This document shows positions 6,567 to 31,006 of a DNA stretch of 34,343 nt, piece by piece. Source of the DNA: an uncultured Candidatus Poseidoniales archaeon (lineage in GTDB: Archaea; Thermoplasmatota; Poseidoniia; Poseidoniales; Poseidoniaceae); contig CACLCM010000016.1 in NCBI GenBank assembly GCA_902605365.1, positions 1-34,343 of the forward strand, in the 5' to 3' direction. A program made the position numbers and the translations under genes. Within the stretch, counting starts at the first letter, position 1; every line of letters starts with the position of its first letter. The notes beneath the pieces were generated by a model that was not told where the DNA came from, did no database searches, and saw only the letters and a program-made list of their open reading frames with translations.

Positions 6567-9500
6567 TCACAACAAGTCATCCAAGAAGGAGGTGTCTATT
6601 CCTCCCTGTGCAGGCTGCTGTTGCTGAACAGGCTGTGTCCAACGCTGAGGTTGTGGCTGTTGAGCAGGTTGCTCGATACGTTGTGCAGCCGCATAAATGT
6701 CATTTTGTTGAGCAGGCTGTATGGCTGCTGGCGGTGCGACAGGTGGTGCAACTTGTCCGCCGAAACTTCCTGTATCATCCCAGCCATCTCTGGCTTGAAT
6801 TCCCCAAGTGGCTTCTTGCAATTCCCACTCCTTGTTTCTTGCAGGACTTCCGCCCCGTCCTCTGAATACTAGGATGAGTAGGATTACTGTCACAAGAAGT
6901 AAGCCTGCTAAAATCAAATTATCTGTAGTCAATAATTCTCCCAAATTTGTAGACGAGTCATCACCATCAGGGGAGTCTTCTCCACTATCGGATTGCCCAG
7001 GAGGGCCAATCCTTTCAGAATCAATTATCTCACGGCTGAATTGGCTATCTTTAGCAGAAACTCCAATCCACCAAGTTGTATCATCACTTAGTTCAGGGAA
7101 GACACTTGGAGTAATCATGAACGAATCTGAAGACCCAGATTCACCCACCATATTAGCATCTACAACTTCACTAAACTCAGAATCAGAGATGTATACCACA
7201 TATGAGCGAACACTTGGGTCAGTACTGTGGTCCCAAGATACCAAGATGGAATCATCGATCCATTCTAATTCTAAACCTTCAATGTCAGGTAAGTATGCTG
7301 CCTTGTCATCTACACCATCATCGATAGCGATAGCGGTTGATGTAACTAAATTATCTCGATGCGCATTTCCTGAAGAATCTACAGCAACTACTGCTACCGT
7401 AACCGGCAGGTTTGGAATTACCAAAGCATCGTATGCTAAGATCTCGATAGTTAGCGGCAACTCAGGACTTCTGTCGAAAGTTGCGATTGGGTTCTGAGGG
7501 CCATTACCATCTGCGCCTACCGATGTGAAGGAGAATGCAGCAGCATATACTTCGTAACTACCGATATCACTAGATTCTGATAATGCGAACTCTAGTTGAA
7601 CCGCAGTACCGTCATCACTTGGCATATCATACAGGTCAATATCTTCGAGACGGTCAGGAGGTGTAGTATCCGCTAGATTATCAATTGGCGTAACCATAGC
7701 TGTATTCAAATTATCAAGGTGTACATTGCCCTTGATATCGTGAACTGTGATTGCCACATACAACTCAATATCTGGCTGAATCTGACTTGGCAATGCTGAA
7801 GAAATACTGCTTCCTCCATACAGTGCTGTATTCAAGGTCAACTGAATTGGACTCTTTTCAGTGTCAATCCATTGTTTGTTCAACACGATACAGCCACATT
7901 TTCCTGGCTCAGTTCCTGCCTCAACCCAGAAGTCAGTCAGGTCATCCAGTGGATATTGTGCAACCCAGATAACATAGTAATCGAAGTCATCTACTTCGGT
8001 TGGAGCCCATGAAACATCGATTGCAGTACCATCATCATCAGGGTGGTCCCAAGCGTTTAGTTCAACGATTCTATCAGGTTCGCTAGCGCCATCAATATTG
8101 TTGACATACGGAGTAACTTCTAGAATTGTAACATCTCCAGTGTCTCCATTCAGCCACTTGTCGTAAGCAACCGCTCCAATCCAGTATGGCTGGCCGTCAA
8201 TCAATTGGTCTTCACCGATTGAATCTATGATTGTCATATTTGTTTCACAGTCAGGAACGATTGCCGCTTCTACCATTCCGTCTACATTACCAGGTAACAT
8301 TTCATTTTCCTTTAGCATCATGTATACTACAACATATGCACAGTCACTGGCAACGGAATTATCCCATCCCATCTGTACTCTTCCACCGTCGTCTTCAGGG
8401 ACATCTTCTGCCCAAACGCCGGTGAGTTTTGGCGGAGGAACGCCGTCATTGACTCCTCCAGTAGGCACTACTGGCCCGATCACTGTTGCATTCACCAGAT
8501 CCTCTTGACCGGATTCATCAACACAAGTGAATGCAAGCCAATGTGGTTTACCTGCTTCCAAAGTTAGAGTGCTGACATTTCCTGCCTGAGGTAAGATTTC
8601 AGCGTTTAGAGTCAAACCTAGTGCATCGGTCACTTCAGTCGTGGAAGCGTAAACGTGAGTACTTGCAAGGTCCAATGCGTTACATCTTGCCCACTCTGCA
8701 AAGACTTCACCATCTACTGCTACAAACTGGTCTCCAGATACAGCGGTAGCCCATGCAGGAGGTATAGGGACTTCATCGGAAGGTGTAGCTGGGCCAAATG
8801 GTGTAGAAGGAATTCCAAACCTTCCATCGTTGTATTCTACAACAACAACTGCCCAATATTCGACACCATCTTGAAGAGATTGTCCTTCAATAGTTGTAAT
8901 TTCAGTTTGTAGCCTAGAGTGCAGGCTGACTGAAGCATCAGGTGTTCGAGGCTGTAATTCAGATACAGTAGGTTGCGAAGTCCAAGGGCCTTCATTCAGA
9001 TAAACGAGATATCTTGAGAAGTCCTCATCGTGGACCAAAGTCCAATTCGCCATAAGAGTAGAACCGCCGTCATCAGGCCTATCCCATAGAGAGAGACCTT
9101 GTATTGGAGTTTCAGTTCTGAACCAATCATAGGTCAATTTGACCCACATGCTGCCATTGGATGGAGAACTGACTTGAAGATTAACATGGCGAGTTCCATT
9201 GATCAGTATTCCATTATCCATTGCATATTGCATACTGGACATGAACGTCGGGTCATTGGAGAGGTTGACTGTAGAGTTCCATTTCATGTCAACTAACTTG
9301 GCCCATGTTGCAGCTCCATCTACTGGAGAAGAGAGTGTCAGAGGTACGTTCTGCATAGAGATTCCATGAGCCCCCGCAGTTCCATCATCACTCAATGTAA
9401 CCGCATTAGAAGAGTCAACTAATACAACTTGCATTCCAGGATGAGTATAATCTGTAACATCTTGGAATTGTAACTGGAATCCTAATGACAGAGGGTCTGC

Positions 9501-12500
9501 CCTTCTTAGGTCAAAGGATTCAACCTCGTCACCGGTATTCAAGGACCAAACTTTCAGTCCATCAGATGTTGAGATAGTCACGTATGAATTTGAAACAACG
9601 CTACCACCAGTCGCATCTTGTGCACTGTAGCGGCCAATTATTGGGTTTCCATTGATACCCGCCTGTACAACGGTCCCTCCGTTATCACCGATTGCAATTA
9701 GGTATGAACCATCAGAACGCATACTGTAGACAGGCCACTCTTCCATAGAGAATACATTGACTCCTGTATTGAATTGATTACTACTTCGTACCCAGTGAAC
9801 TAGAGGGCCTATATCTGTTGCAATATGAACTCCCCAAATGTCTGAGGCGACCGCAGTTACCGAGTTTGAAGGCAATTGGTCAAATTGATGTAGATCCATA
9901 ATAGTTTGATTGGCAGCATTGAATTGAGTAATTCCTGGTCTTTCAGTACCCCTGCCATCATGCGATATGAACAAACTAGGCGTGCCTGCGGAAGAAGTTG
10001 TTTTTCCTACTAAGGCCCAACTAGATGTGCCCATCATCCCATCAGCAGCAGTGTAAGATGAGAATGAATCTGTAGTTGTATCATACATCGACAAACCATT
10101 AGGAGTGGCCATCCAGATATTTCCATCAAATTCGATAATATCTTCGACATAAGATATTGGCAAACCGTCGAGAGCTGTCCATGCGGTATCCCAAGTATTT
10201 CCTGTACTATTCCATCTACCAACACCGTCATTTGTTGCTATGTAGGTTGTTTCATCACCAACATTATTCGAGACTGTCAAAAACCCATTTACATTGTTTG
10301 AAGGTAAACCTGCAAGCAACCTTCCAGCAGTATATGTGTTAGATGTTGTATTGAATATTTGAATTCCGGCAGACGAGGTTCCCGAACCTTGTAAACCGAT
10401 GAATAAATCATCACCTACAACAGCAAGACCATCTTGGAAATTATGTATACCTGCAGGAAGAGGTTGTAGCATGCCAGTTGTGGTATCTAACATCCTCAAC
10501 CCCCGGTTGTTGCTAGCGAGGTACAGATCAGTTCCTACTAATTCGATATCAGTAACAGCAGCATTTGCAGGGATTGTCCATCCCTTTTGCCATTCTACCG
10601 AACCATTTGCTAATTTTAATCCCTGTAGCACTCCAGAACCGGTGTTCTGCCATGAAGCTGAAGCAACCCAAAGGTGAGTTTGGTTTCCAGCCATTGAAGT
10701 TACTTGACCGCTTACTAGGTTAGGTAATGCGTGAAGAGTGTTCTGTCCTAATTGACCCAATGTGTCAACGTGAGAATATCCTGAAGTCCCTCCTGCTTGA
10801 CCTATTAGCCATTGAGTGCCAAGCCAATCTATTGAAGAAACAGCAGAACCAGTAGACAGGATACTAGCAGTTCCTACTGTGGCACCATTAGCCGAGAGTA
10901 CAGCATATCCGCCTCCGATTACATTGTCACCTTCTGTTCCAATATCGTAACCAATAGCCAGTTTTCCTCCAGCGAATTCCATTGCACCCCACCAGACAGG
11001 GTCTGTTGGAATATTGTGTGAAGATGCTGTAAGTTCAGATAACCAAAGACCGGTATTGTAATTGTATCGAGATATTGGTTCAGAATCGTCATTGTATCCT
11101 ACATAGAGAATGTTACTTGAATCATCACAAGCCACGGCAGCAGCATCACCATCTGCTAACCTTGTGGCTGTTGTGAAAGTCGATAAGACGGTCCCATTAG
11201 TTAGGTCAAACCGGGCAACTCCGCCGTTGTTTGCTGTTAATGAAACGTGGAATATTCCAGCGCACATAGCCATTCCAATTGGGTATCCATTTGGTATTCC
11301 ATTAATGCCTGTGTCCCACGAAGTCCAAGACCCTGCGCCATCTAGATGCATGATTTCTCCATCAAGCCCTTGCCATCCCTGGTTTCTTGCTGTACCTACG
11401 ACTAAGTCTGTACCATTTGTCCATAACTCGTAAACAATATCATCTGCAGAGTTTGGCAATCCAGAACCAGCAGTCCAAGTGCTTAACCAAGAAGAACTAG
11501 ATTCATCAAATCTAGCAACACCATCTTCGGTTGCGAATAATATTTCACCATCAAATTCTAGGATTTCTCTAATTGGGAATTCAAAGTTATCCCATTCTCC
11601 GATTTTACTTCCATTCGAAGCAAAAGCTTCGAGTTTAGATTCGCCCCAAGATATCCAATTTGTGCCGGTTGAAGAGATGAAAGATGTCACTCTATCCACC
11701 GAGCCGCTAGGCATCAATTCAGCCTGCCATGAATCGGTGGTGAGGTTGTAAAGTGCGATTCCACCACTGCCTTGTGTTTGCCACCACTGTCCACTAGCAA
11801 CCGAAACATGGAGCACATCTCCAATAATTTCTAGGCCGTAAACATCTCCTCCATTTTCATCGACTTGTGCTCCCGCATCAAGTGTAGATTTTGATGTAAA
11901 GTTTGCAATATCAATTCGATAGACGCTATCTGAAGTGTACTGCTGGTGGTAGTATAGGGTGTCCCCGTAGATCGCTAAATCGTAAGGGTCGCCATTTCCT
12001 GAGTAGAGACTACTAGTTTTCTCAATATCATAAACTTCTGAACCAGTGGTAACATTGAGTAGCTGGAAACCATCACTTCCTCCAACCCAGATGTGTCCTG
12101 GTCTGAAATCTGCAACCAATCCTGTAACTTCTTCATTTCCTCCATCGAGATAATTGTCTTCGGTCCAAGTGGTTAACCAATTATTGTTTGGAACATCATA
12201 TCTTGCAACACCAATGCCGTTAAGCCCGATATATGCAATATCATCAATAACGACCACTAAGGCGTTATCAGTCTCTTCTCCTGCTTCCCAGGTGCCGGTT
12301 ACAGAGAATGAAGACTTATCGATAATTCCAACCCCACTGGTAGTTCCGCCAAATACGGTAGAACTATTCATGCCGATAGAATAAACTCCCCAATTTGGCA
12401 TCCCATCTTGCGCATTTACGCAATCTTGAATTGAAGTCTGACTGTATTTACAGACTCCAATATTTGTTGCTGAGTATGCAGTTGAGCCATCGAATATGAA

Positions 12501-14834
12501 ATCAAAATGTTGGTCAGGTTGTAAATTCCAACTGTTGCCTTGGCTGAGAGATGTGGCTGAATTACCATTCCAGACAATTGCACCGTCGCCTGTACCAATG
12601 TATAATCCACCACTAACAGTATTTTCTTCCAAAGCGAATACCTGGTTACTAGGAAGTACTTCAGTAGAGCCAGCATTACCCCTGTCTGGCTCGACAGTCA
12701 GTGGGATCAATATTTCACCAGTTGAAAGGTCCTTTCTAGCAACTCCATAGCCTGACAATCCCATGTGTAAGATTTGAGGGTTAGTTCCATAAATTGCCAC
12801 TGGAGCGAAATCGACATCATTGATTCCGGTTGAAACCCATGAGCCTAAGAATGAATTATTAGCGATGACATAACGATTGAGACCATCTCCTGCAGTGCCA
12901 ATATACGCCACTCCATTGTGAATTGCAATACCCGTTGGCGAATCGCTATCGAGGTCACTATTTCCTTCATTCAAGTTAACGATTGAAGTTGAAGAAGACG
13001 TGTTGAAAGCGGTTGCTCCATTTTGGGGATGAATCGTAACGACCCAATCTCCTTCAACATCCAATCCTGAAATGACATCTGACTGCATACCATCTCCTAT
13101 GTCCCATGTATCCAGTACATTGCCCATTGTGTCAACAACGTGCACACCACTTCCTAATGTTCCCACCAATACATTGACTCCATCATTTACGATTTGAGAA
13201 ACCTCATCGCCCATGTCGATTGATGAAAGCCATCTTGCTTGACTAATTGAGTATCTATCTAGATAGTTTTCACTTCCAATATAAATCACGCCATCGAACT
13301 GCATGGCATCAGTCATGTCACCGGATGAAGGGCTACTGCCAATAACAAAGTCACCAGTGTATAGCGGAGTATTTCCAGGTTCCAGCATTGCAAATACAGC
13401 ACTACCATCGGTTACCAATACAGTATCGTTATTTGGGCTTCTAGAGCCTGCTGCTGGCCAATAAATGATATTTTGTCCACCATTCATTTGACCGATAGAA
13501 GAGAGAGGAGTATTAGTTGCAAATGTGCCTGAAGTTGTATCGTATGTGTGCACTGTAGTGTCGGCTAGAATTAGAATATCATTGTTGACGACGGTCATGC
13601 CCTTGACATCATTTGACGATAACCAATTGCCGTCGTTCCAGGTCGCTAACCAAAAGTTACCAGACAGATCTCTTCTCGCAATTCCCGCATCATATGAAGA
13701 AATTAGTAATTGGCTACCCGAAACTGCAAATTCACTGATATCATCTGAATGCAAGTTGTTAGCAGTCGACCAAGGCGCCAATGCAGACATTGCAGATACA
13801 TCCCATCTTCCAACTCCTCCTCCAATTATCGCGGCATAGATTATGCCATTGTGTTCAAAGGTTTCCTCTGGAGTTCCTGCTGGCCAATTACTAGTGGAAC
13901 TTGCTTGTTCAAGCGTCCAGCCAGTACCTGCTGTGTTAAGCGTGAAAATTCCGGATTGGCTGAATGCAAACAAGTCTCCATTGCTGCCAACATGAACTTG
14001 ATTCCAAGCCCCACCCGAAGGCTCAGCAGGTAAGTCGGTATTCCAACTGGTGTCATCTAAATTGACTGAATGAAGTTCTCCAGAATTAGTAGTAACTAGC
14101 ATTCTGTTGTTTGCAGCATCCATTTCTAGGTCAGTAACATAATTGTCGTCTTCGCTATTCTCTAGTTCAAACACATCAATTATGTTGGGTGATGACTTTG
14201 CGTCTAGTACAGAAATTGTATCGCCAATAGCCATGTACATTCTTCCATCTGCTGGATGAATTTCATAATCTTCGATATAAATTTCTACAGGGACAAGCGA
14301 TGTGAACGGGTCTGCAGGAGCTAACACTTCCAGAATGAAATCAGTGATTTCTGAAGAGGAAGGTACTGTGACTGTAGCCCCAACATCTGCATTTGGAGAA
14401 AGCCTTCCTTGGTGAGGATTATTTCCATCGAATCCGAACGATTGGCCTAACCAGCCATTCCCTCTCCAGTCAAACAATACCTGCCCGGTGTCTGGCGAAA
14501 GCAGAAGAGGTTCTTGGATTGAGACTCCATCAGAACCATCTACTCTTACTTCCATGGATACATTCTCTAAAACTGCACCTGGGGCGAAATTTAACATCCA
14601 ATCGGCGGTTGCTTGGGAACCATTAATTGCATTCGCACCAGTGGCGTTTAGCAAAACCCAACCAGTGTCTTCTGAACCTTCTTTTGGCCAAATTGTACTG
14701 TTGCCTGTATCATGCGCACTAACCAGTGGCGATGAAAGAATTGGACCCAAAGATGCCAACAACATTACTGTCACGAGTAGTATGGCTCGAGCGCCAGCAC
14801 TAGCAGGGCCTACGGCCCTGTTGAGATTGTTCAT
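6567..14834 (-). CDS. giant cell-surface protein: multiple beta-propellers, FnIII repeats, C-terminal anchor
   Basis: About 2755 residues. A basic/hydrophobic signal peptide (AILLVTVMLLASLGP, cleavage probably near SAHD) leads into a beta-sandwich-like N-terminal region. From about residue 150 to 1850 the sequence is propeller-like, with a recurring blade signature around G-[VIL]-x-[RKV]-[YFW]-D followed by W-L-x-T-W. About six FnIII-like domains follow, starting near 1905, 2020, 2140, 2258, 2393 and 2518; several open with a D-x-P-x-D-D-G motif. An acidic Ser/Gly/Asp stretch precedes one transmembrane helix (about 2638-2658), then a basic stop-transfer and a Q/P-rich cytoplasmic tail ending in FLDDLL. 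ATG 14834 is chosen because a TATA-like box lies 26 bases upstream, as for a leaderless mRNA; ATG 14843 and TTG 14891 are alternatives. The function is not known; adhesion or polymer binding is inference. Confidence 0.9.
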   Translation of the reverse strand: MNNLNRAVGPASAGARAILLVTVMLLASLGPILSSPLVSAHDTGNSTIWPKEGSEDTGWVLLNATGANAINGSQATADWMLNFAPGAVLENVSMEVRVDGSDGVSIQEPLLLSPDTGQVLFDWRGNGWLGQSFGFDGNNPHQGRLSPNADVGATVTVPSSSEITDFILEVLAPADPFTSLVPVEIYIEDYEIHPADGRMYMAIGDTISVLDAKSSPNIIDVFELENSEDDNYVTDLEMDAANNRMLVTTNSGELHSVNLDDTSWNTDLPAEPSGGAWNQVHVGSNGDLFAFSQSGIFTLNTAGTGWTLEQASSTSNWPAGTPEETFEHNGIIYAAIIGGGVGRWDVSAMSALAPWSTANNLHSDDISEFAVSGSQLLISSYDAGIARRDLSGNFWLATWNDGNWLSSNDVKGMTVVNNDILILADTTVHTYDTTSGTFATNTPLSSIGQMNGGQNIIYWPAAGSRSPNNDTVLVTDGSAVFAMLEPGNTPLYTGDFVIGSSPSSGDMTDAMQFDGVIYIGSENYLDRYSISQARWLSSIDMGDEVSQIVNDGVNVLVGTLGSGVHVVDTMGNVLDTWDIGDGMQSDVISGLDVEGDWVVTIHPQNGATAFNTSSSTSIVNLNEGNSDLDSDSPTGIAIHNGVAYIGTAGDGLNRYVIANNSFLGSWVSTGINDVDFAPVAIYGTNPQILHMGLSGYGVARKDLSTGEILIPLTVEPDRGNAGSTEVLPSNQVFALEENTVSGGLYIGTGDGAIVWNGNSATSLSQGNSWNLQPDQHFDFIFDGSTAYSATNIGVCKYSQTSIQDCVNAQDGMPNWGVYSIGMNSSTVFGGTTSGVGIIDKSSFSVTGTWEAGEETDNALVVVIDDIAYIGLNGIGVARYDVPNNNWLTTWTEDNYLDGGNEEVTGLVADFRPGHIWVGGSDGFQLLNVTTGSEVYDIEKTSSLYSGNGDPYDLAIYGDTLYYHQQYTSDSVYRIDIANFTSKSTLDAGAQVDENGGDVYGLEIIGDVLHVSVASGQWWQTQGSGGIALYNLTTDSWQAELMPSGSVDRVTSFISSTGTNWISWGESKLEAFASNGSKIGEWDNFEFPIREILEFDGEILFATEDGVARFDESSSSWLSTWTAGSGLPNSADDIVYELWTNGTDLVVGTARNQGWQGLDGEIMHLDGAGSWTSWDTGINGIPNGYPIGMAMCAGIFHVSLTANNGGVARFDLTNGTVLSTFTTATRLADGDAAAVACDDSSNILYVGYNDDSEPISRYNYNTGLWLSELTASSHNIPTDPVWWGAMEFAGGKLAIGYDIGTEGDNVIGGGYAVLSANGATVGTASILSTGSAVSSIDWLGTQWLIGQAGGTSGYSHVDTLGQLGQNTLHALPNLVSGQVTSMAGNQTHLWVASASWQNTGSGVLQGLKLANGSVEWQKGWTIPANAAVTDIELVGTDLYLASNNRGLRMLDTTTGMLQPLPAGIHNFQDGLAVVGDDLFIGLQGSGTSSAGIQIFNTTSNTYTAGRLLAGLPSNNVNGFLTVSNNVGDETTYIATNDGVGRWNSTGNTWDTAWTALDGLPISYVEDIIEFDGNIWMATPNGLSMYDTTTDSFSSYTAADGMMGTSSWALVGKTTSSAGTPSLFISHDGRGTERPGITQFNAANQTIMDLHQFDQLPSNSVTAVASDIWGVHIATDIGPLVHWVRSSNQFNTGVNVFSMEEWPVYSMRSDGSYLIAIGDNGGTVVQAGINGNPIIGRYSAQDATGGSVVSNSYVTISTSDGLKVWSLNTGDEVESFDLRRADPLSLGFQLQFQDVTDYTHPGMQVVLVDSSNAVTLSDDGTAGAHGISMQNVPLTLSSPVDGAATWAKLVDMKWNSTVNLSNDPTFMSSMQYAMDNGILINGTRHVNLQVSSPSNGSMWVKLTYDWFRTETPIQGLSLWDRPDDGGSTLMANWTLVHDEDFSRYLVYLNEGPWTSQPTVSELQPRTPDASVSLHSRLQTEITTIEGQSLQDGVEYWAVVVVEYNDGRFGIPSTPFGPATPSDEVPIPPAWATAVSGDQFVAVDGEVFAEWARCNALDLASTHVYASTTEVTDALGLTLNAEILPQAGNVSTLTLEAGKPHWLAFTCVDESGQEDLVNATVIGPVVPTGGVNDGVPPPKLTGVWAEDVPEDDGGRVQMGWDNSVASDCAYVVVYMMLKENEMLPGNVDGMVEAAIVPDCETNMTIIDSIGEDQLIDGQPYWIGAVAYDKWLNGDTGDVTILEVTPYVNNIDGASEPDRIVELNAWDHPDDDGTAIDVSWAPTEVDDFDYYVIWVAQYPLDDLTDFWVEAGTEPGKCGCIVLNKQWIDTEKSPIQLTLNTALYGGSSISSALPSQIQPDIELYVAITVHDIKGNVHLDNLNTAMVTPIDNLADTTPPDRLEDIDLYDMPSDDGTAVQLEFALSESSDIGSYEVYAAAFSFTSVGADGNGPQNPIATFDRSPELPLTIEILAYDALVIPNLPVTVAVVAVDSSGNAHRDNLVTSTAIAIDDGVDDKAAYLPDIEGLELEWIDDSILVSWDHSTDPSVRSYVVYISDSEFSEVVDANMVGESGSSDSFMITPSVFPELSDDTTWWIGVSAKDSQFSREIIDSERIGPPGQSDSGEDSPDGDDSSTNLGELLTTDNLILAGLLLVTVILLILVFRGRGGSPARNKEWELQEATWGIQARDGWDDTGSFGGQVAPPVAPPAAIQPAQQNDIYAAAQRIEQPAQQPQPQRWTQPVQQQQPAQGGIDTSFLDDLL

Positions 14835-14856
14835 GGAACCCATCCGTTTGCAATGG

Positions 14857-14864
14857 TATATCAA
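14857..14864 (-). promoter_or_regulatory. TATA-like box for the giant surface protein gene
   Basis: Read on the minus strand this is TTGATATA. Its centre lies about 26-27 bases before ATG 14834, the classical archaeal TATA-to-start distance for a leaderless transcript. No Shine-Dalgarno sequence precedes that ATG, which fits leaderless initiation. This is prediction from spacing only. Confidence 0.45.
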
Positions 14865-14939
14865 TCGAATGCTCAGTTGTTTTTGGCACAAATATTAGAT
14901 TGAATCAACTTTAGGATGTTTTTTTATTTCCTCCTTCCG

Positions 14940-14948: not shown

Positions 14949-15035
14949 TTCATTCCAAATATCGGCTGAATTAGGTTATGTTTCACAAAAAGGTCAAACC
15001 CCGTACTGTATGAGATATCGTTTGGAGAGATGAAA

Positions 15036-17345
15036 ATGGGCGAAGATTGGCGTGAGCGGACCATCAAAAAAGAAGCTCTCGATTATCATGAAGCATCTCC
15101 ACGTGGCAAAATCAAAGTCATGCCTACAAAACCTCATTCTACATCACACGAATTATCTCTAGCCTATTCTCCAGGAGTTGCATATCCTTGTCTTGAAATT
15201 GCCGAAAGACCAGAGGATGCTTATCGCTACACTTCCAAAGGTAACTTAGTCGCAGTTATCTCTAACGGCACTGCTGTTCTAGGGCTTGGAAATATAGGGG
15301 CACTGGCCTCTAAACCTGTGATGGAAGGTAAGGGTTTGTTGTTGAAGACATTCGCAGATATTGATGTTTTTGACATTCAAGTCGATACAGAAGACCCTGA
15401 AGAATTTATCAAAACAGTTTGTAATATCGCTCCAACATTTGGAGGAATAAATCTCGAAGACATCAAAGCTCCAGAATGTTTTGAAATCGAGAGGAGAATT
15501 GCTGAAGCCACAAATATCCCGGTTATGCACGATGATCAGCACGGTACAGCGATTATTTCAGGCGCTGCTTTACTGAACGCTGCTGAATTACAGGGTAAAG
15601 AGCTAGCCACCATCAAAGTGGTAGTGGCCGGAGCGGGCGCATCAGCAATCGCTTGTGCTTCTCATTACATTTCTCTCGGAGTAAAAGTGGAAAATATCTT
15701 GATGTGCGATTCCCAAGGAATTATGACGAAAAGAAGACTTGATGCAGGCGAATTAAATGAATACAAAGCAAAATTTGCTGTCGAAAGAGAGGATGGCGAT
15801 TTAGCAGATGCATTAGTTGGTGCAGATGTTTTACTTGGACTATCTCGTGGAGGCTTAGTTAGTGGAGAAATGGTCGCCAAGATGGCTGACAAACCAATTA
15901 TATTCGCTCTTGCAAATCCCACTCCTGAAATCATGCCTCATGAAGTTCTAGCAGTTCGTAATGATGCAATCATTGCAACAGGTAGGTCGGATTATCCTAA
16001 TCAAGTAAACAATGTTCTTGGATTCCCTTACATCTTCCGAGGCGCCCTTGACGTTAGGGCAAGAGACATTACTCCGGGAATGAAGATGGCAGCGACTCAT
16101 GCTCTAGCCAAGTTGGCGAAGGAACCAGTTCCTGATTACATCGCGCATGCATATTCTGGTGAATCAATGCAATACGGCCCAGAATATATAATTCCAAAAC
16201 CGTTTGACCGCAGAGTATTGATTTGGGAAGCAGCAGATGTTGCTGAAGCAGCAGTAAACGAAGGAGTCGCAGCGATAAAGCCAGAGGATTTTGACAAACA
16301 AGCGTACAAGGAATCTCTTGAAGCAAGACTCGGAATGTCATATTCTGTAATGCGTGGAGTATTCAATCAAGTAAAGGGCCGAGGTAAAAGAATTGTATTC
16401 CCTGAAGGAGACCACGAGAAAGTTATTCGTGCAGCCGCTCAATGTATTGAGCAGGATATATGCAAGCCAATACTTCTTGGAAATGTAGAAAGCATACATC
16501 AAAAAATGGCTGAGTTGAATATTGAATTTGAATGTGAGATTACTAATCCTCGATACGACGAGAGAAGAATCGGGAATTATGATCTTGAATTATTAGAGAA
16601 TCGAAGCCGCAAAGGTATGACGATTATCGATGCCCAGAGATTGCTGAAAAGTCGACCGTACTTTGCAGCACAGATGGTTGAAATTGGAGATGCAGACGGT
16701 TTCCTAGGTGGCGTTAGCAGAAATTATGCAGATGTCTTACGCCCATGTCTTGAGATAATTGGTAGCGATGAAGATAGTCACTGTGCTATTGGATGTTACA
16801 TGATGGTTGTCAAGGGCAGACTAATTTTCCTAGGAGATGCTACGGTAAATGTATACCCAGATAGCAAGGCGCTTGCCGACATAGCAGTTCAAACAGCGAA
16901 GGTTGCACGAAGATTTGGTGTCGAACCTAAGGTTGCTATGTTGTCATTTTCTAATTTCGGAAGTAGTCGAGCACAGCGTTCTGAAAGAATAGAAGAGGCT
17001 ATTGATATGGCCAGAGAAATGGACCAAAAATTGCAAATTGACGGTCCAATGCAAGCAGATACTGCACTTGATATCGATGTTCAATCTGAATATCCATTCA
17101 TGGCTTTCGATGGTCCAGCCAATGTACTGATTTGTCCAAACTTGGCCTCAGCAAACATCGCTTACAAATTATTGGAACAATTAGGTGACGCTGAAATGAC
17201 TGGACCTATTTTGGACGGTTTAGATAAGCCCGTACAATTACTCGCTAGAGCGGATGGAGTTCGGCATATTGTCAATATGGCAGCCATCTGTTCTTTGGAT
17301 GCAATACGCCAAGAGTCATATTGGGCTAGTCTGTCAAATAACTGA
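15036..17345 (+). CDS. maeB: NADP-dependent malic enzyme with C-terminal phosphotransacetylase-like domain
   Basis: About 769 residues, the length of MaeB-type malic enzymes. The N-terminal malic domain shows [12 protein letters not shown] (about 41-52), [23 protein letters not shown] and [10 protein letters not shown] (metal and malate site), followed by a Rossmann segment ([12 protein letters not shown]). From about residue 440 to the end it resembles phosphotransacetylase ([17 protein letters not shown]), which in this family is regulatory and probably lacks acetyl transfer. It oxidatively decarboxylates malate to pyruvate, yielding NADPH. GGAG at 15024-15027 is eight bases from ATG 15036 but only two from ATG 15030, so I chose 15036. 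It stands alone behind its own promoter. Its end overlaps the convergent gene by 20 bases. This bifunctional architecture is chiefly bacterial, so lateral transfer is plausible. Confidence 0.93.
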
Positions 17346-22450: not shown

Positions 22451-22477
22451 GATGTCTTGGTTTCTCTCGCCAAAATC

Positions 22478-23467
22478 ATGTCGCCTTTAGACGGGATTGT
22501 CCGTGTCGTTGCAGACTCGGATTTAGACGGCTTGATGGCTGCGGCAGTTCTCAAGGCTAGCAACCCTCAAATCGAGGTTCATTTTGCTCATCCAGCCCTA
22601 TTGCGAGGAGGTAGTCTCGACCACTTAATAGACCGTAGTACGGCTATTTGCGATTTACCATTCCATCCAGATTGTGGATTATATTTGGACCATCACCTGA
22701 CCAATAGACCCTCTCCGGAAGAGCAGGAGATTTTTGAAAAAGATGGCGGAGTTTGTCACTGGCGAGACACCCCGTCTGCCGCAAGAGCCGCGTATGATTT
22801 GATGAAAAATCAACTTGACCTGTCACATTTAGAAGAGATAATGCCGATTGTTGACGCACTAGATTCGGGCGGAATTACCCTTGAAGAATTCACTGAAGAT
22901 GGGCCAGTGATACGCCTTTCCCGCTCACTGTCATTATCTGACCCTGATCATATGCAAGTCGTACTAGAACAATTTGCAACAGGAGTAAGTCTTGAGGAAA
23001 TCCTTGCAAGCCATGCTACGCGACTAGATTTATTGGGTGCAGAGCGAGAGAAACAGTCTAAATTAGTCAAGGAAAAAACGGTTATTGTTGATGGTCTAGC
23101 GATCTGTGATTTGAGCGAAACAGGAGTTCGAAGTAATGGTTACCTAATCACAGCATTAGCCGGAGATGAAGCCTATGCTTGTTGCGTAATTCATGGGTTT
23201 ATGGATGGAAGTATCGAGGATGCAAACCGCCCTGCTTTAGGCGCATCTTTCTACGCCAATTCGTTCAGAGGTCAAGAAAATCCGTATGACCTCTCTAAAC
23301 TTGCAACATTGCTGGATGAGACTGGCGGTGGCCATGCAAACGCCTGTGGTTGCCGGATACAACCGTCCGATGGAAGCAAAAGGAAATTGATTTTAGGAGA
23401 CAAAGAACACAATCTTGAACAGTGGCTAAACCTTTGGAAGAATCGAGAAAACCAGATGCTTCGTTGA
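22478..23467 (+). CDS. DHH/DHHA1-family phosphoesterase, RecJ/nanoRNase-like
   Basis: 329 residues. DHH-type motifs are VADSDLDG (about 11-18), a second Asp in AICDLPF, and LYLDHH (Asp71-His72-His73). The C-terminal DHHA1 motif GGGHANACGCRI is near residue 282. The family uses manganese to cut phosphodiester or phosphoanhydride bonds: RecJ DNases, oligoribonuclease/pAp phosphatases and cyclic-dinucleotide phosphodiesterases. The first motif has Asp-Ser-Asp where many members have His-x-Asp, so metal coordination may differ. The size suits a short-substrate enzyme or an archaeal RecJ-like protein, and I cannot tell which. ATG 22478 is chosen because it precedes the first strand; TTG 22457 is an in-frame alternative. 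It is a single-gene transcription unit. Confidence 0.83.
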   Translation: MSPLDGIVRVVADSDLDGLMAAAVLKASNPQIEVHFAHPALLRGGSLDHLIDRSTAICDLPFHPDCGLYLDHHLTNRPSPEEQEIFEKDGGVCHWRDTPSAARAAYDLMKNQLDLSHLEEIMPIVDALDSGGITLEEFTEDGPVIRLSRSLSLSDPDHMQVVLEQFATGVSLEEILASHATRLDLLGAEREKQSKLVKEKTVIVDGLAICDLSETGVRSNGYLITALAGDEAYACCVIHGFMDGSIEDANRPALGASFYANSFRGQENPYDLSKLATLLDETGGGHANACGCRIQPSDGSKRKLILGDKEHNLEQWLNLWKNRENQMLR

Positions 23468-23548: not shown

Positions 23549-25879
23549 ATGGAAGGTGTAACCGACCCTAAAATGCTTGAAGGGCGTTCCTTTTACAAGC
23601 TGGGTGAGTTTACTTACGACCACAGAAAGAAAGTCTTGGTCATTGGAATCCTTGCATGTCTCGCAATGGCTTCATTGATGACAATGGGCTCAAATTGGGC
23701 AGAATCCTGGGGAGAGGGAGACCTCGAATCAATGAATGCAGGTAAGATGTATGATGACGCCTTCACCTCTGAAGAGGGAACCCAATCCTTCACTTATCTC
23801 GTATTTCACCCTACTTTAGATGATACATCTAGCGTATGGCAAGATGCTGTAACCGAAGCATTGAGTGATTTTGCTATTCTAGATGATGTTAGTATCGAAT
23901 ACTCATGGGACAACAAAACTGTTGATGAGAGAGGAGAATTCATTTACGAAGATGATGAAGGTTTCTGGGCTTTGAATGTTGTAACCATAAATTTGGAACG
24001 TACTGAAGCAAAGGAATTGTACGCTGAAAATTGGGAAGATGTGGAAATTGACGATGAGGAATTCGAGACCTGGCGAACAGGCGGAGTTGCTATCGATGTA
24101 ATTTTCGATAAGAGAATCCAAGATGATTTGATTACGGCAGAACTTGTCTCAGGTCCATTATCTCTAATTATTTTGCTAATTGTTTTTGGAACAATAATTG
24201 CAGCACTATTACCAATTGGAATTGCGTTCTTGACCGTACTTTCAGCAATGGGGATTACCATTTGGCTATCGAATGTCACGGACGTAACTCAATATGCTGT
24301 GAATATTATTTCTCTAATTGGAATCGGAGTATCAATAGATTATTCCTTATTCATGGTAAATCGATTCCGTGAAGAAATGAACCGCGGTCATGACATTAGG
24401 ACCTCAACAGCGATGACTGTGGCAACTGCCGGTAAAGCGGTATTCTTCAGTGGAGTCACTGTTGGAATTGGCCTAATGGGAATGTTATTCTTTGAAAATA
24501 CAGGAATTCCAAGCCTCGGTATTGGTGGTACATTGGCAGTATCAGTTGCTATGATTTATTCACTGGTTGTTCTTCCTTCTATACTTGCAATGCTCGGTTC
24601 TAGAGTAAGCGACGGATGGAAATTACCGTTCTCCTTCAAGACAGAAAATGATGCCGAAGATGGGATTTGGTCGAGGATTGCGAAGACTGTAATGGAACGC
24701 CCTTGGACTGTATTAATTCCTACATTGGTTATCCTTCTTGGAGCGGGATTACCATTCTTCCAAGCGGAGTTTTCTATGGCCTCTAGAGATGCTCTACCTC
24801 CTGATGATGAAACCCGAGTTGGGTTTGAACACTTAGATGAGAAATGGCCAGAAAGTGCAGCAAACTCTGCACTGATTGTGCTCGACTTTGATGGTGAAGA
24901 CCCGCTTGAGGAAAACAACATTCGTATGATGTATAGATGGGCGAGCGATCAAGTCAATGACTCTCGAGTAATCGATGGTTTTGGTTATGCTTTGGGCCCG
25001 ATGCCCGGAATGTCAGAAGATGAAGTTGTAGACTTCTGGAGTAGTGACGAATTGTCTCCTCAGATGAATGCAACTCGAGAATATAGTCGTCAGTTGTTTT
25101 TAGCAAACAGTACGACGTTTTTCGTATTCTCGTTAGATGGACCAATTACTGGTGCAGACAGTAGAGAATTTGTTAGTGATATTCGAAATGACAGAGCCTC
25201 TTTAATCGACGATTTAGTAATCGGAGATGATGGCGCTCTACTGGTTGCAGGCTTCGCAGCATACAGCCTAGACACGCTAGATGCAATCGCAGATAATTTA
25301 CCAATAGCATTGGCATTTATTTTCATCTCAACAATAATTCTAATCTTCATTCAAGTACGCAGTATAATCATCCCAATCAAAGCAATTGTGATGAATATTC
25401 TATCCATTTCGGCTTCGTTCGGAATGTTAGTATTCGTATTCCAATGGGGTTATGGTGCGGATTTGCTGAACTTTACACCTCAACCGATAGAAGCTACTAA
25501 CCCTGTGATTATGTTCTGTATCGTCTTCGGGTTATCGATGGATTATGAAGTTCTAATGTTATCGCGAATACATGAAGAATGGGAGAGAACTGGTGACAAT
25601 ACCTTAGCGGTTGCAAATGGGCTGCAAAGGACTGGAAGACTGATCACTGGTGCAGCAGCAATCATGGTTGTCGTATTCAGCGCATTCGGCCTTTCCTCTG
25701 TTGTAATATTGAAACAGATAGGGCTTGGTCTTGCTTTGGCAATTCTAATCGATGCAACTATCGTTCGAGCACTTGTAGTTCCGGCAACAATGAGATTGAT
25801 GGGCAAGTGGAATTGGTGGTCTCCAGCATGGCTTGGGGGCTCAAAGAACATTGAAAATGTTAAGGAACCCGAGGAATGA
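23549..25879 (+). CDS. MMPL/RND-family membrane exporter
   Basis: 776 residues with a duplicated RND plan. There is one helix near residues 28-46, an acidic extracellular domain to ~190, and five helices at about 197-350. The second half repeats this, starting near residue 388 with a second external domain to ~580 and a final helix bundle to ~755. MMPL-type signatures recur: IGIGVSIDYSLFMVNRFREE in the first half and FGLSMDYEVLMLSRIHEEW in the second, with Asp-Tyr pairs in the proton-relay helix. Relatives export lipids or hydrophobic compounds using the proton gradient (MmpL, HpnN, SSD-domain proteins). No adaptor or outer component is adjacent, as expected for an archaeon. It is probably monocistronic. 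The 3' end overlaps the convergent gene by 39 bases. The substrate is unknown. Confidence 0.88.
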   Translation: MEGVTDPKMLEGRSFYKLGEFTYDHRKKVLVIGILACLAMASLMTMGSNWAESWGEGDLESMNAGKMYDDAFTSEEGTQSFTYLVFHPTLDDTSSVWQDAVTEALSDFAILDDVSIEYSWDNKTVDERGEFIYEDDEGFWALNVVTINLERTEAKELYAENWEDVEIDDEEFETWRTGGVAIDVIFDKRIQDDLITAELVSGPLSLIILLIVFGTIIAALLPIGIAFLTVLSAMGITIWLSNVTDVTQYAVNIISLIGIGVSIDYSLFMVNRFREEMNRGHDIRTSTAMTVATAGKAVFFSGVTVGIGLMGMLFFENTGIPSLGIGGTLAVSVAMIYSLVVLPSILAMLGSRVSDGWKLPFSFKTENDAEDGIWSRIAKTVMERPWTVLIPTLVILLGAGLPFFQAEFSMASRDALPPDDETRVGFEHLDEKWPESAANSALIVLDFDGEDPLEENNIRMMYRWASDQVNDSRVIDGFGYALGPMPGMSEDEVVDFWSSDELSPQMNATREYSRQLFLANSTTFFVFSLDGPITGADSREFVSDIRNDRASLIDDLVIGDDGALLVAGFAAYSLDTLDAIADNLPIALAFIFISTIILIFIQVRSIIIPIKAIVMNILSISASFGMLVFVFQWGYGADLLNFTPQPIEATNPVIMFCIVFGLSMDYEVLMLSRIHEEWERTGDNTLAVANGLQRTGRLITGAAAIMVVVFSAFGLSSVVILKQIGLGLALAILIDATIVRALVVPATMRLMGKWNWWSPAWLGGSKNIENVKEPEE

Positions 25880-26263
25880 ATGGAAAATCATCAGCGCGAT
25901 TAACAAATCCGCAGCTCTTCCGTGCTTTCTTTTAGCCATCTTATCCTTACGTGAAATTCGGCCCCATCTTGCAGTTATCCAAAGCAAGATAATTCCAATT
26001 GGTCCGGTAAATCCGTGCAGGCTATCTGGGATTAATCCAAGACCGGTATACCACCTTGCAAAAAAGGCGATTAAAACTGTAAGAATTGCTGCCTGAAGTA
26101 TACGCTCACCCACCTTTTCATGGCGTTCCAACGCCTCTCGGCGGGTTTCACCTTTCAGTTCCCGGCTTTTGCGCTTCCAGCCATATTGCCACCACATCCA
26201 AGCAAGTATTACTACCGCCGTGATGGGGTGCAGCAACAGGATAACGGTCCGGAGCACATCCAT
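25841..26263 (-). CDS. four-helix integral membrane protein (DUF4079/cytochrome b561-like, tentative)
   Basis: 140 residues with about four hydrophobic helices (about 3-23, 55-73, 82-98 and 117-137). The first helix has His in LLLHPITAVVIL, and others carry His at GFTGPIG-proximal and LMIFHSF positions; with the basic loop RKSRELKGETRREALERHEK, this recalls small haem-binding four-helix membrane proteins of the DUF4079/b561 type. That assignment is tentative. ATG 26263 is well supported by AAGGTG five bases upstream (26269-26274); GTG 26287 is the alternative. It is divergent from the PIN-domain gene. Its last 39 bases overlap the end of the MMPL gene. Confidence 0.65.
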   Translation of the reverse strand: MDVLRTVILLLHPITAVVILAWMWWQYGWKRKSRELKGETRREALERHEKVGERILQAAILTVLIAFFARWYTGLGLIPDSLHGFTGPIGIILLWITARWGRISRKDKMAKRKHGRAADLLIALMIFHSFLGFLNIFNVL

Positions 26264-26347
26264 TAATTCACCTTCAGACGGTCCCACATGATGGTTGTTT
26301 GGAATGTATTGGGTAGCCGGTGGCTCTAAAGGCGTCCGGCTTAGGGC

Positions 26348-26366
26348 CTCACCCCGGAGGGGTGAG
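26348..26366. promoter_or_regulatory. perfect 8-bp hairpin over the ribosome-binding site of the PIN-domain gene
   Basis: CTCACCCC (26348-26355), loop GGA, GGGGTGAG (26359-26366) form a perfect GC-rich inverted repeat. It contains the GGAGGGG Shine-Dalgarno sequence and ends two bases before ATG 26369. In mRNA it would hide the ribosome-binding site; in DNA it could be an operator. Confidence 0.6.
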
Positions 26367-26368
26367 TG

Positions 26369-29300
26369 ATGCTACAGGAAAATAATCTCGCCGCTTGCCT
26401 AAAATCCGGAATGAAGGATAACCTCCCTCCTGCAACTCGCCAACGCATAGTTGCTAAAACTCCTGAATGGAGAATGTTGGATAAACCATGGAAATCTCTT
26501 CTTCTTATTGCATTAAATGAATTGCAGGTTCCTGGCGAAGATGAGGATGGCCAACCATCAAACATGATGCGAGGTCGCCGATCACCACGTGGTCGTCGTG
26601 GGGGCAGAGGTGCTAGCAGTGGGCCTATGGAGTGGCTTCCTGAATCCAGTGAAGTATTGTTGGATGATGGGTCATCATCTCCTGCTTTCCGCCTTGCAGT
26701 ATTGTTGATTCGCAAAACTATTTTCGCGGATGATTGGGAAGAGTCTTCGGACGCAGTAGTCGATGATTTACGTGAACAAGTTTCGTCAAAAGGGGTTCAC
26801 CCAGTCTGGGCAAAGATGGCAGAGTCTACGCCTATCCTCGCACAATTTGCAGCATTCCCACAATCCGATGTTGCTGAACAAGAAGACGATTCATTCGATT
26901 TGGGTGCTGGCTGGATTGACCCTTCAAAGTCGAAATCTCTTTCTCAGTCTCTGACTAAACTTGACTCTAGTGTGACTAATGCAACCGTCAAAATGGCATT
27001 GCAGAAAGCCAGAGCACAACTCAATGGCAAGAGAGGACTCCGTGACATAAAAGGTCTTGAGGCACTCGAAGGAGAAGCCAGTATCATCAGTGTATTATTG
27101 AATATTCATCTAGAGAATGATGCAACTGATTCATTGAAACAACTTGCAAAGAGCGATTCAGATTTAGCCGATGCACTAACCGATTTGGTACAACTCCGTG
27201 CAGGCAATCCTAGCGATTGGCAGAACTCTCGTTCATTATCAGGAGATGATGAACTCTCCTTGGCAAGAAAGAAGGCTGCTTGGGATTTAATGCCTGAAGA
27301 AGCTTCAAAACTAACCAGTGAAGAACTGGCTGAAGGGTTAGATAATGCATCAACTCCTCAGCAGAAAGAGACTCTTACTTGGTGGAGGTTAGCAGCCTTG
27401 GTCAAGGAAGACTCCTCAGATCTAGCTCTTGAATTACTAACCTCTCTATCTGTAGAGTCGGATGCAGACATGAGCGTTTTGATGCCACTTGTCAAGAAGT
27501 TAGGGGATGATGCCTTCACTTGGCTCGCTTCACAGATTGAAAATCTTGCACCGGAATCGCTTTCCAACATCACTATCGATGAGGAAGTAGGGATTACACT
27601 TCGTGTAGCAGCGGCTCGCAGACTCCATGATATGGGTGCGTCAGTTGGTATCGATTCATCGATTGACCTTTTCACTCGTAGCCTCGATTTGACGCGCCTA
27701 GCCCAAGTTCTGTTAGTTGATGAACAACGCTGCATAGACAACCCTTACTCGACACTACTGGTTGCACATTTGCTTCCTGCAAGAACCAAGGGTTGGAATT
27801 TTGAAACCATTCGCAAAGCAAGGCGCGATGCTCTTTCTACCGTTGACCAAGCAGAGGTTCCTAGTGCCTTCTCTTCCGCTAGTAGAGGATTGATTCTGAT
27901 GCTTGATGGAGCGGCGCAATCCGATGATAATTGGATAGTTGATACACTTGATAAAAATGGAATTAAGGCATTCAACCATTGTCGTCAAGCGCTGAAAGAC
28001 GGAGGAGATGGCTTAGCCGATTCCAAAGTAATCGACACACTAGCCAAGAGTGTTGCAAGTGCAAAATTGAGCGATGTAGAATCTAGATTATTCGATGCGG
28101 TTATTGATACTCTAAGGCTAAATCGAGCATCCTGGCTATTGCAGACTGGCAAAGACTCTGGCGTAATTGAGTTACTCGATGGGTTACTTTCTGGTGAAGT
28201 TACTGCAATGCCTATGATGCATGCAGTGCGACACCTAGTTCTAGAGTACGATATAGGATTAGCAAATCTCGTATCATGGTATCAAGAGAACGACCCTCAA
28301 TCTCCTTGGCACACTCTCGCACGTGCAGCTGTTCATGTCGGAAACGGCGAGGAACTGAACGCAGCTAGAGATTATCGCAAGGCAGGAGACCATGCCGACT
28401 TTGATTATGAGCACAGAATCTTACTTCACCGTAAAGCCCTCATTCATCTAGCGCATGCCGAACAGTGGTCTGAAGCGGTAGCACTTTTGGAACAAGAACC
28501 TGCTCTAAAATCTGCACTGACCAAGAGATTCCAACTCTATCTTAACGTATCCCATATCGCTGCAAGTAAGCGTAATTCCGATGAGGCCACAAGATTGCTG
28601 AAGACTTTCGTTAAGAGAACAGAAATGGTAACTCAAGAAGACCAGCAAGGAAAAACTCAACTCGTCGAGAGAGTCAAGCATTCTGAAGAAGAATTAGACG
28701 TGCTACGAAATTATCCTTCATCTCACCCTAGACCACTTCCTCGTGAACCGTTCTCCGGTAGAGTCAAGGCGGCATTGAACACACTTCAGCGTGAAAGAAG
28801 GCGCAATCGACACACTTTCGAGAATCGTTATTCACAGGCTATGATGCATGACCCGTCAGGCGAAGAAATCTACGAAATCGCTCTCGAAGCCTCAGCAGAA
28901 AAGCCGCTAGAAGGATTGATGCTATTGGAGAGAGCGCAAAACTCTGGACGGTTTTCAATTCTAGATATCAAGAGGCTTGGTGATGCAGAGCGTAGCCTGT
29001 TCGCAACCCACAGGCACAATCTACCAATCAAGCATCGTTCATACTTACGAAATTTGGCGTTGAGCCCTCTAGTAATCTTAGATACAAATATTCTGATCGA
29101 TGAATTACAACACAGAATCTCCAGCAAATTAGGAATTAATGCAGAAGCATCTCTTGACATTGGAGGAAGAGGACGATTCCATCGAATCCTCAAACACCGT
29201 GCACAGCAAGGAGTAATTCAGTTGTGGTTACCGAAGGTCGTCAGACATGAATTAACGGTTATTGCGGGGGACATAGAGCGAATTAGAAGTCTATTTGTAG

Positions 29301-29749
29301 ACACCCTTGTCGATTCAGAAACCCTTGACAGTATACTAACTCCTGAAATTCTTAGCGAGATAGTCACTTCGATCGTCAGTGACTTCTCTACTTGGAAACC
29401 AATGGATTTACATCTTGAAGATGAAGCAGATGATGAAGAGATTAGAAGTGCATTTGAGCAATTCTTCGTAGACCACACCGAGGTATATGACGAAATTACT
29501 ACTATGAAGAGAATGAGTGGGGAGCCAATGCGTACTGCTATCGGTAAACTCGATATCTATCCTGAAACAGCAGATCAGAATCTGATGTGCTTGGCAACTG
29601 CAATGGCTAATCGGTCACTTGGGGAGATTGGCAGTATTCTAATCGCCACAAGAGATTCAGATTTCACACTTGTAGCACGAGGAATCGAAGAGAGATTCGG
29701 ATTCGGAGTAGTTGCAAATAGCCGAGACCTCAACTCTTGGCTACGCTAA
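26369..29749 (+). CDS. large helical-repeat protein with C-terminal PIN nuclease domain
   Basis: About 1126 residues. The C-terminal ~220 residues (from about 904) fit a PIN ribonuclease domain: VILDTNILIDEL with the first catalytic Asp, an acidic central helix, DQNLMCLATAMA, and LIATRDSDF with the terminal Asp pair. The first ~900 residues are mostly alpha-helical and acidic, without a named family, apart from a short RG-rich basic stretch near residues 66-84 (SPRGRRGGRG) that could bind RNA. The region around 660-780 looks TPR-like (LHRKALIHLAHAEQWSEAVA). No antitoxin-like partner is adjacent, and the size is far above VapC toxins (~130). An RNA-processing or quality-control nuclease is inference. 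ATG 26369 is eight bases after GGAGG; GTG 26366 is the alternative. It is probably monocistronic. Confidence 0.83.
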   Translation: MLQENNLAACLKSGMKDNLPPATRQRIVAKTPEWRMLDKPWKSLLLIALNELQVPGEDEDGQPSNMMRGRRSPRGRRGGRGASSGPMEWLPESSEVLLDDGSSSPAFRLAVLLIRKTIFADDWEESSDAVVDDLREQVSSKGVHPVWAKMAESTPILAQFAAFPQSDVAEQEDDSFDLGAGWIDPSKSKSLSQSLTKLDSSVTNATVKMALQKARAQLNGKRGLRDIKGLEALEGEASIISVLLNIHLENDATDSLKQLAKSDSDLADALTDLVQLRAGNPSDWQNSRSLSGDDELSLARKKAAWDLMPEEASKLTSEELAEGLDNASTPQQKETLTWWRLAALVKEDSSDLALELLTSLSVESDADMSVLMPLVKKLGDDAFTWLASQIENLAPESLSNITIDEEVGITLRVAAARRLHDMGASVGIDSSIDLFTRSLDLTRLAQVLLVDEQRCIDNPYSTLLVAHLLPARTKGWNFETIRKARRDALSTVDQAEVPSAFSSASRGLILMLDGAAQSDDNWIVDTLDKNGIKAFNHCRQALKDGGDGLADSKVIDTLAKSVASAKLSDVESRLFDAVIDTLRLNRASWLLQTGKDSGVIELLDGLLSGEVTAMPMMHAVRHLVLEYDIGLANLVSWYQENDPQSPWHTLARAAVHVGNGEELNAARDYRKAGDHADFDYEHRILLHRKALIHLAHAEQWSEAVALLEQEPALKSALTKRFQLYLNVSHIAASKRNSDEATRLLKTFVKRTEMVTQEDQQGKTQLVERVKHSEEELDVLRNYPSSHPRPLPREPFSGRVKAALNTLQRERRRNRHTFENRYSQAMMHDPSGEEIYEIALEASAEKPLEGLMLLERAQNSGRFSILDIKRLGDAERSLFATHRHNLPIKHRSYLRNLALSPLVILDTNILIDELQHRISSKLGINAEASLDIGGRGRFHRILKHRAQQGVIQLWLPKVVRHELTVIAGDIERIRSLFVDTLVDSETLDSILTPEILSEIVTSIVSDFSTWKPMDLHLEDEADDEEIRSAFEQFFVDHTEVYDEITTMKRMSGEPMRTAIGKLDIYPETADQNLMCLATAMANRSLGEIGSILIATRDSDFTLVARGIEERFGFGVVANSRDLNSWLR

Positions 29750-29770: not shown

Positions 29771-31006
29771 TCACATGTGAGAAATCATTGCTTTACCAAA
29801 TGCAGAGCAAGATAGTAATTCAGCATCGTCCATCAATCTTTCAAAGTCGTAAGTCACAGTCTTTGCAGAGATTGCTCCTTCCATGCCTGATACAATCAAG
29901 TCAGCGGCTTCGCCCCAACCCATGTGTCGTAGCATCATTTCAGCGGAGAGGATTAGTGAACCAGGGTTTACCTTATTCTGTCCAGCATATTTTGGAGCGG
30001 TTCCGTGAGTTGCTTCAAAGATAGAGATTCCAGTATCGTAGTTGATATTTGCACCAGGGGCAATTCCAATTCCACCTACTTGTGCAGCTAATGCATCAGA
30101 GATGTAGTCGCCATTCAAGTTCATAGTTGTCAATACTCCATATTCTGCAGGGCGGGTGAGAATCTGTTGTAGCATAGCATCAGCGATTACATCCTTCACA
30201 GTTATTGTATTGCCAGTCTTTGGATTGGTGAAGGTACACCATGGGCCACCATCGAGTTCTGTTGCTCCAAATTCATCCTTTGCCAACTGGTATCCCCAAT
30301 CTCTGAATCCACCTTCTGTGAATTTCATGATGTTTCCTTTGTGAACTATTGTTACACTATCCCTGTCATTATCGATTGCATATTGCATTGCTGCTCTAAC
30401 AATACGAGCAGTTCCTTCTTGACTGATAGGTTTGATACCAAGTCCCGAGGTGTTAGGGAATCTAATTTTGTCAACGCCCATTTCATTGATTAAGAAATCC
30501 ATTACTTTCGCAACTTCTTCAGAGCCAGCTTCCCATTCTATCCCAGCATATACGTCTTCACTGTTTTCTCTGAAGATAATCATGTCTACATTTTCAGGAG
30601 ACCTTACTGGAGACGGTGTTCCTTCATACCAGCGCACAGGTCTTACACATGCAAACAGGTCTAGTTTCTGTCTAAGCGCAACATTGAGTGAGCGTATTCC
30701 TCCACCAACAGGAGTTGTCAGGGGACCTTTTATCGAAACCAATCCAGAGCGCATTGCATCCAGTGTTTCTTCAGGTAGCCATTCTCCAGTATTGTTGAAT
30801 GCCTTTTCACCAGCAAGAGTTTCCACCCAAGTAATCGCTTTGTCACCCGAATAAGCCTTTGATACAGCCGCATCTACAACCTCCATCATTACTGGGGTTA
30901 TGTCTACTCCAATACCGTCTCCTTCAATATAATGTATGATTGGATCATTTGGTACGATTAACTTTCCATCTTCCATGGTGATTGGTGTGCCTGACATGGT
31001 GCTCAT
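29771..31006 (-). CDS. icd: NADP-dependent isocitrate dehydrogenase
   Basis: 411 residues, the usual bacterial length. Motifs include [15 protein letters not shown], the substrate-binding [13 protein letters not shown] (Ser106 equals the regulated Ser113 of E. coli), [34 protein letters not shown], and [17 protein letters not shown]. The Lys-Tyr after HGTAP marks NADP rather than NAD preference. It oxidises isocitrate to 2-oxoglutarate and CO2 in the TCA cycle, yielding NADPH. The sequence is very like E. coli Icd along its whole length, pointing to a bacterial origin. No isocitrate dehydrogenase kinase/phosphatase is nearby. ATG 31006 has no clear ribosome-binding site; ATG 30997 is an alternative. 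It is divergent from the OsmC-like gene. Confidence 0.96.

Follow-up and report, generated by a model that had tools for sequence, protein, structure and literature searches.

A conserved solenoid-PIN protein of marine Poseidoniales that may serve as a housekeeping ribonuclease

Introduction

In protein-only RNase P (PRORP), a helical repeat region is joined to a nuclease of the PIN superfamily. PIN nucleases act with two metal ions and four acids, the metal-binding acids of SMG6 being D1251, E1282, D1353 and D1392, and some active PIN domains have a fifth acid (PMC12923823). SMG5 and SMG6 combine a TPR-like helical domain, which has extended loops, with a connecting helix and a C-terminal PIN domain (PMC12923823). 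The VapC toxins (PF01850) comprise about 130 residues and are encoded next to an antitoxin.

Here, we describe a gene located in a 34,343-nucleotide contig of an uncultured archaeon of the Candidatus Poseidoniales, or Marine Group II (GCA_902605365.1, CACLCM010000016.1; the window is this whole stretch of DNA). The encoded 1126-residue protein, referred to as the solenoid-PIN protein, can be compared with each of these systems. It resembles SMG6, the endonuclease of metazoan nonsense-mediated decay, in its TPR-like region with loops, the connecting helix and the C-terminal PIN domain with D-E-D-D acids (PMC12923823). However, there is no detectable sequence or fold relation between the two proteins, and the solenoid-PIN protein has a helical insert of about 75 residues and an invariant fifth Asp. 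It shares with PRORP the helical repeats, the PIN-superfamily nuclease and a five-acid site (PMC12923823), but RNase P RNA is present in the genomes that carry the solenoid-PIN gene, and matches to the NYN family are weak and confined to 3 of 53 members. Like Nob1, it is an archaeal protein with the domain of a PIN endoribonuclease, although a separate Nob1-type protein exists in the same genomes. The VapC toxins have a PIN core with the acids in the same order, whereas the solenoid-PIN protein is far longer, lacks an adjacent antitoxin and has a housekeeping distribution. A search of a library of open-licence papers gave no publication naming both PIN domains and the Poseidoniales.

The gene and its product

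The gene occupies positions 26369..29749 of the + strand, exactly as a previous reading of the sequence alone had proposed, and its reading frame is intact, with an ATG at 26369 and the stop at 29749. A Shine-Dalgarno-like GGAGG motif is directly visible at 26356..26360 (+). Since this motif sits 8 nt ahead of the ATG, the latter is favoured over an alternative GTG at 26366, a single codon further 5'. Scanning the protein against Pfam returned no family and scanning it against NCBIfam only sub-threshold noise, while a sequence search of the PDB with the protein, a 28-member profile or a C-terminal profile as queries gave nothing meaningful. The first 900 or so residues thus belong to no known family in these collections, as the sequence-only reading had stated, and no characterised protein was found to be homologous to the N-terminal region. 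The solenoid-PIN architecture is real, conserved and undescribed, and it is in all probability built from a known catalytic fold.

The C-terminal PIN domain

The C-terminal domain comprises residues 895-1126 (29051..29746, +; isolated domain model with pLDDT 88.7 and pTM 0.86), and the order of its predicted strands and helices fits a PIN domain. The additional elements are a helical insert at about 977-1050 and a hairpin at 1056-1063. Each of the 53 aligned orthologues has the same five acids: D905 at the end of strand 1 in a DTN motif (29081..29083, +), E961 at the start of the helix after strand 2 (29249..29251, +), D1069 in a PExxD motif (29573..29575, +), and D1096 and D1098 in the motif ATRDSDF (29654..29662, +), which are the fourth and possibly the fifth PIN acid. 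They follow one another in the order of the PIN topology and give the canonical D-E-D-D series plus a further Asp. Moreover, position 1066 of the PExxD motif (29564-29566, +) is Glu in 52 of the 53 orthologues. The motifs DTN, D-Q-N and RDSD that had been picked out from the sequence are therefore present, and E961 and E1066 can be added to them. It is improbable that the PIN domain is catalytically silent and serves for binding only, like that of SMG5: the large scaffold suggests a structural role, but all five acids are invariant, and in a partly redundant set of 138 full-length sequences DTN is found in 137, D.DF in 138 and PE..D in 137.

Profile comparisons point to the same superfamily. 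Models of the PIN clan are among the commonest Pfam matches of the 53 members at E values up to 1, with PIN_12 matched by 22 members, PIN by 10, PIN_3 by 4, PIN_4 by 3 and NYN by 3; the best PIN_4 match has an E value of 3.4e-4. The closest profile family to the catalytic domain is PIN_12 (PF16289), which scores 12.6 bits with the protein of the window and 19.9 and 21.3 bits with the orthologues of G036 and G007, compared with a curated cut-off of 32. No match reached the curated cut-off of a Pfam PIN model where this was checked. Using hhalign, the N-terminal half of the domain matched archaeal PIN alignments with P values of 1e-7 and 6e-5, and none of 100 shuffles was as good; the two PIN sets were fetched separately but share some members, because there are loci with matches to both of the PIN families. 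An unrelated neighbour family, included as a negative control, gave a probability of 0.1%. The C-terminal half was marginal on one set (1 of 100 shuffles as good) and without a match on the other. In the BFVD, the top structural match and closest predicted fold is a phage protein annotated as 'PIN like domain' (A0A8S5M7Q9; prob 0.99, TM 0.42, E 0.058), which differs from the solenoid-PIN protein in having 366 residues, too few for a long solenoid. A fold search of the PDB with the domain model yielded no PIN structure, the best E value being 0.66. Taken with the invariant acids, the profile matches and the PIN-like best structural match support the C-terminal PIN domain proposed in the sequence-only reading, and the domain almost certainly belongs to the PIN superfamily.

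The helical scaffold and the RG loop

An AlphaFold2 model of the full-length protein, built on 53 orthologues (mean pLDDT 84.2, pTM 0.65), predicts helices throughout residues 1-890. Residues 91-890 form an all-helical solenoid (26639..29038, +), and residues 1-54 are helical too. The helix pairs in the region 599-747 repeat every 30-38 residues, which is in the range of TPR repeats, so that the predicted structure agrees with the earlier description of this part as helical and partly TPR-like. The Pfam TPR model has no match above the cut-off in the solenoid-PIN protein, and other members of the family show single weak matches to helical-repeat models. The matches listed in a PDB fold search with the full-length model include IFT-A, the SKI complex, CAND1 and CRM1 with TM scores of 0.09-0.17; these were not accepted as relatives and are read as generic helical-repeat similarity.

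Between the first helices and the solenoid lies a disordered loop (residues 58-83; 26540..26617, +; pLDDT below 50). It contains the Arg/Gly-rich patch that had been seen in the sequence, which we place at residues 68-81 (RGRRSPRGRRGGRG, nt 26570-26611), and the loop is RG-rich in nearly all of the 53 orthologues. In the orthologue alignment, the mean net charge is +3.6 for residues 55-90 and -26.4 for residues 91-560. The positive loop, which adjoins an acidic N-terminal solenoid, appears to resemble RNA-binding patches of the RGG type.

Further downstream, the model and the orthologue alignment place a two-stranded hairpin at residues 749-771 (28613..28681, +), which interrupts the helical repeats and is followed by a conserved motif, YP..LP..F.GR, at 782-798. 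A long helix in the model, residues 864-884 (28958..29020, +), leads into the PIN domain. Because conservation is highest at the end of the solenoid (561-894) and in the PIN domain, the two may form a joint functional surface.

This layout, including the 21-residue helix in front of the PIN domain, is that of SMG5 and SMG6 (PMC12923823). By analogy, the solenoid might dock on mRNPs or on translation complexes that have stalled or are aberrant, and the PIN domain might cut the mRNA. We regard such a surveillance function as unlikely, since no PDB chain matches the protein in sequence and no SMG protein is found among the 50 fold matches listed.

Distribution, genomic context and selection

Orthologues were found in 55 of 61 genomes of near relatives. 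When 293 genomes from across the phylum were sampled, 77 of the 82 Poseidoniales genomes had an orthologue, and none was found in the six genomes of the one further family listed for this class. The remaining 205 genomes contributed just two marginal matches (E 0.005-0.008), which lie in helical segments and not in the PIN domain and were treated as noise. The 211 Thermoplasmatota genomes outside the Poseidoniales hence contain no convincing orthologue, and within this phylum, which the profile search covered, the family is specific to the Poseidoniales and not broadly archaeal. All 80 loci returned from a named genome collection are titled as uncultured marine archaea, either as Candidatus Poseidoniales, Poseidoniaceae or Poseidonia sp. 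or as Euryarchaeota/euryarchaeote. From these titles and the taxonomy, the two gene-bearing families (f1 and f2) are taken here as Poseidoniaceae and, presumably, Thalassarchaeaceae.

In both families, the same gene order recurs: a cobalamin adenosyltransferase, a Nudix protein, a DHH-motif protein, a divergent DUF4079-like gene and the PIN gene. In the window, the DUF4079-like gene encodes 148 aa (25841..26287, -; Pfam DUF4079 E 7e-07, just below the cut-off), and it is kept in place at most loci. On the 3' side follows a convergent gene of the isocitrate/isopropylmalate dehydrogenase family (29771..31006, -; Pfam Iso_dh 4.9e-91, and synteny) or, in part of the second family, another convergent gene set. 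The previous suggestion that no partner gene is adjacent is correct in that an operon or antitoxin partner is lacking; it does not hold for the divergent DUF4079-like gene, which is a conserved neighbour at most loci.

Five Poseidoniales genomes gave no match. For two of them (G298 and G307), the absence is uninformative because the contigs bearing the neighbouring DHH gene are only about 5 kb long, with the match no more than about 1 kb from an end. The other three (G043, G058 and G039) all belong to one genus of the second family and are its only genomes in the sample. In G043, the two genes that flank the PIN locus elsewhere are 46 bp apart (L185, 4217-4731), and in G058 (L186) and G039 (L187) the divergent upstream gene is missing as well. 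Thus, with three genomes of one genus lacking the gene and one empty site, the gene can be lost, and it is not indispensable in all Poseidoniales. This natural loss offers a comparison group. A second copy in G005 (C17; L054, 4226-5116) has neighbours in the gene order of the other Poseidoniales family and, judged by this order, was taken as assembly contamination and not as a genuine duplicate.

Among close orthologues, dN/dS (Nei-Gojobori) is 0.04-0.07 for the whole gene, 0.03-0.07 for the solenoid and 0.04-0.11 for the PIN domain. Given these values and the order-wide orthologues, the observation is far beyond chance. A tblastn search of 50,697 phage records and a search of IMG/VR viral contigs revealed no relative of the protein. 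The gene is best explained as chromosomal, vertically inherited and housekeeping. A toxin or an abortive antiviral effector, in which the PIN domain would be coupled to a large sensor region, would be in line with the frequency of PIN domains among VapC toxins and with the phage-encoded PIN-like protein as the nearest structural match. However, this is very unlikely, as neither an antitoxin nor a mobile context was found at the solenoid-PIN loci, the chromosomal position is fixed in both families, presence is near-universal with low dN/dS in both parts of the protein, and the viral collections hold no copies. The toxin-antitoxin reading is therefore disfavoured by distribution, synteny and the missing antitoxin. 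PIN proteins of the VapC type (PF01850) were not detected at E 0.001 in five sampled Poseidoniales genomes (G000, G035, G036, G037 and G091); they are present in most of the other Thermoplasmatota genomes sampled.

Standard RNA enzymes and the proposed function

The archaeal RNase P RNA was found in 17 of 18 genomes, the one containing the window among them, and a separate Nob1-type PIN_6 protein likewise in 17 of 18; the solenoid-PIN protein itself has no Pfam match to PIN_6. Matches to the RNase PH, aCPSF1 and Pelota families occur in all 14 genomes tested, although the Pelota scores are mostly below the curated cut-off, the Pelota match in the 60%-complete genome of the window is only partial and the aCPSF1 match in G048 is only weak. 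Since these genomes as a group contain all of these components, the solenoid-PIN protein takes the place of none of them, and replacement of RNase P RNA, Nob1, the exosome, aCPSF1 or Pelota is rejected.

These findings bear on what the protein may do. The surveillance function modelled on SMG6 would be compatible with the presence of Pelota-family proteins in the Poseidoniales. However, the three genomes without the PIN gene still encode such proteins, which argues that Pelota and the solenoid-PIN protein are not coupled. An archaeal counterpart of SMG6 that evolved independently, in which the RG loop and the solenoid would recognise the RNP and the PIN domain would cut aberrant mRNA or the mRNA of stalled ribosomes, seems improbable to us.

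We consider it probable that the gene is inherited vertically on the chromosome and encodes a housekeeping ribonuclease of the Poseidoniales, in which a PIN endonuclease is positioned by a TPR-like solenoid and an RG loop. According to this proposal, the D-E-D-D acids and the fifth Asp would bind two divalent metal ions and the PIN domain would cut RNA endonucleolytically, while the solenoid of about 890 residues with its RG loop would bind RNA or a partner particle and thereby position the PIN domain. Catalytic activity, the metal mechanism, RNA as the substrate and RNA binding by the RG loop are what we infer for the protein, whereas the reading frame, its conservation, the domain layout, the PIN assignment, the synteny and the loss in one lineage are computational results. 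Its role would likely be the processing or surveillance of cellular RNA, supplementing the standard archaeal enzymes. In a more specific form of this explanation, the protein would be an endonuclease peculiar to the Poseidoniales that matures a single stable RNA, an rRNA or tRNA precursor, with a role comparable to that of Nob1, Utp24 or protein-only RNase P. This form is possible but tentative. It is consistent with presence across the order, slow evolution and a single chromosomal locus, and precursors of rRNA or tRNA are the targets of several known PIN enzymes, for instance Utp24 (PMC5895043). However, both RNase P RNA and Nob1 are found in the same genomes, and the gene is missing from three genomes of one genus.

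Under the broader proposal of a housekeeping ribonuclease, what this very abundant ocean archaeon encodes appears to be a conserved enzyme for the processing or quality control of RNA and not a toxin. The sequence-only reading had suggested an undescribed archaeal nuclease of this kind. Of this reading, the fusion of a PIN domain to a long undescribed helical region without a toxin-antitoxin context is supported, together with conservation across the order, and RNA processing or surveillance is a putative role. The range has to be narrowed, as the fusion is Poseidoniales-specific within its phylum. If the proposal is true, archaeal RNA metabolism would gain, beside the usual RNA-processing enzymes, a PIN nuclease that is carried on a scaffold and is not part of a toxin-antitoxin pair.

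Other genes of the window

The DHH-motif protein, whose gene keeps its place near the PIN gene, has 336 aa in the window (22457-23467, +) and carries the DHH-family motifs DSDLDG, DHH and GGGH. None of six orthologues has a Pfam match, and the protein is likely a phosphoesterase or an enzyme of the oligoribonuclease type. Moreover, the window contains an open reading frame of 2774 aa without a Pfam match (6567-14891, -), a single protein that fuses chorismate-binding and glutamine amidotransferase domains (3927-5909, -), and malic enzyme domains fused with a phosphate acetyl/butyryltransferase domain (15030-17345, +).
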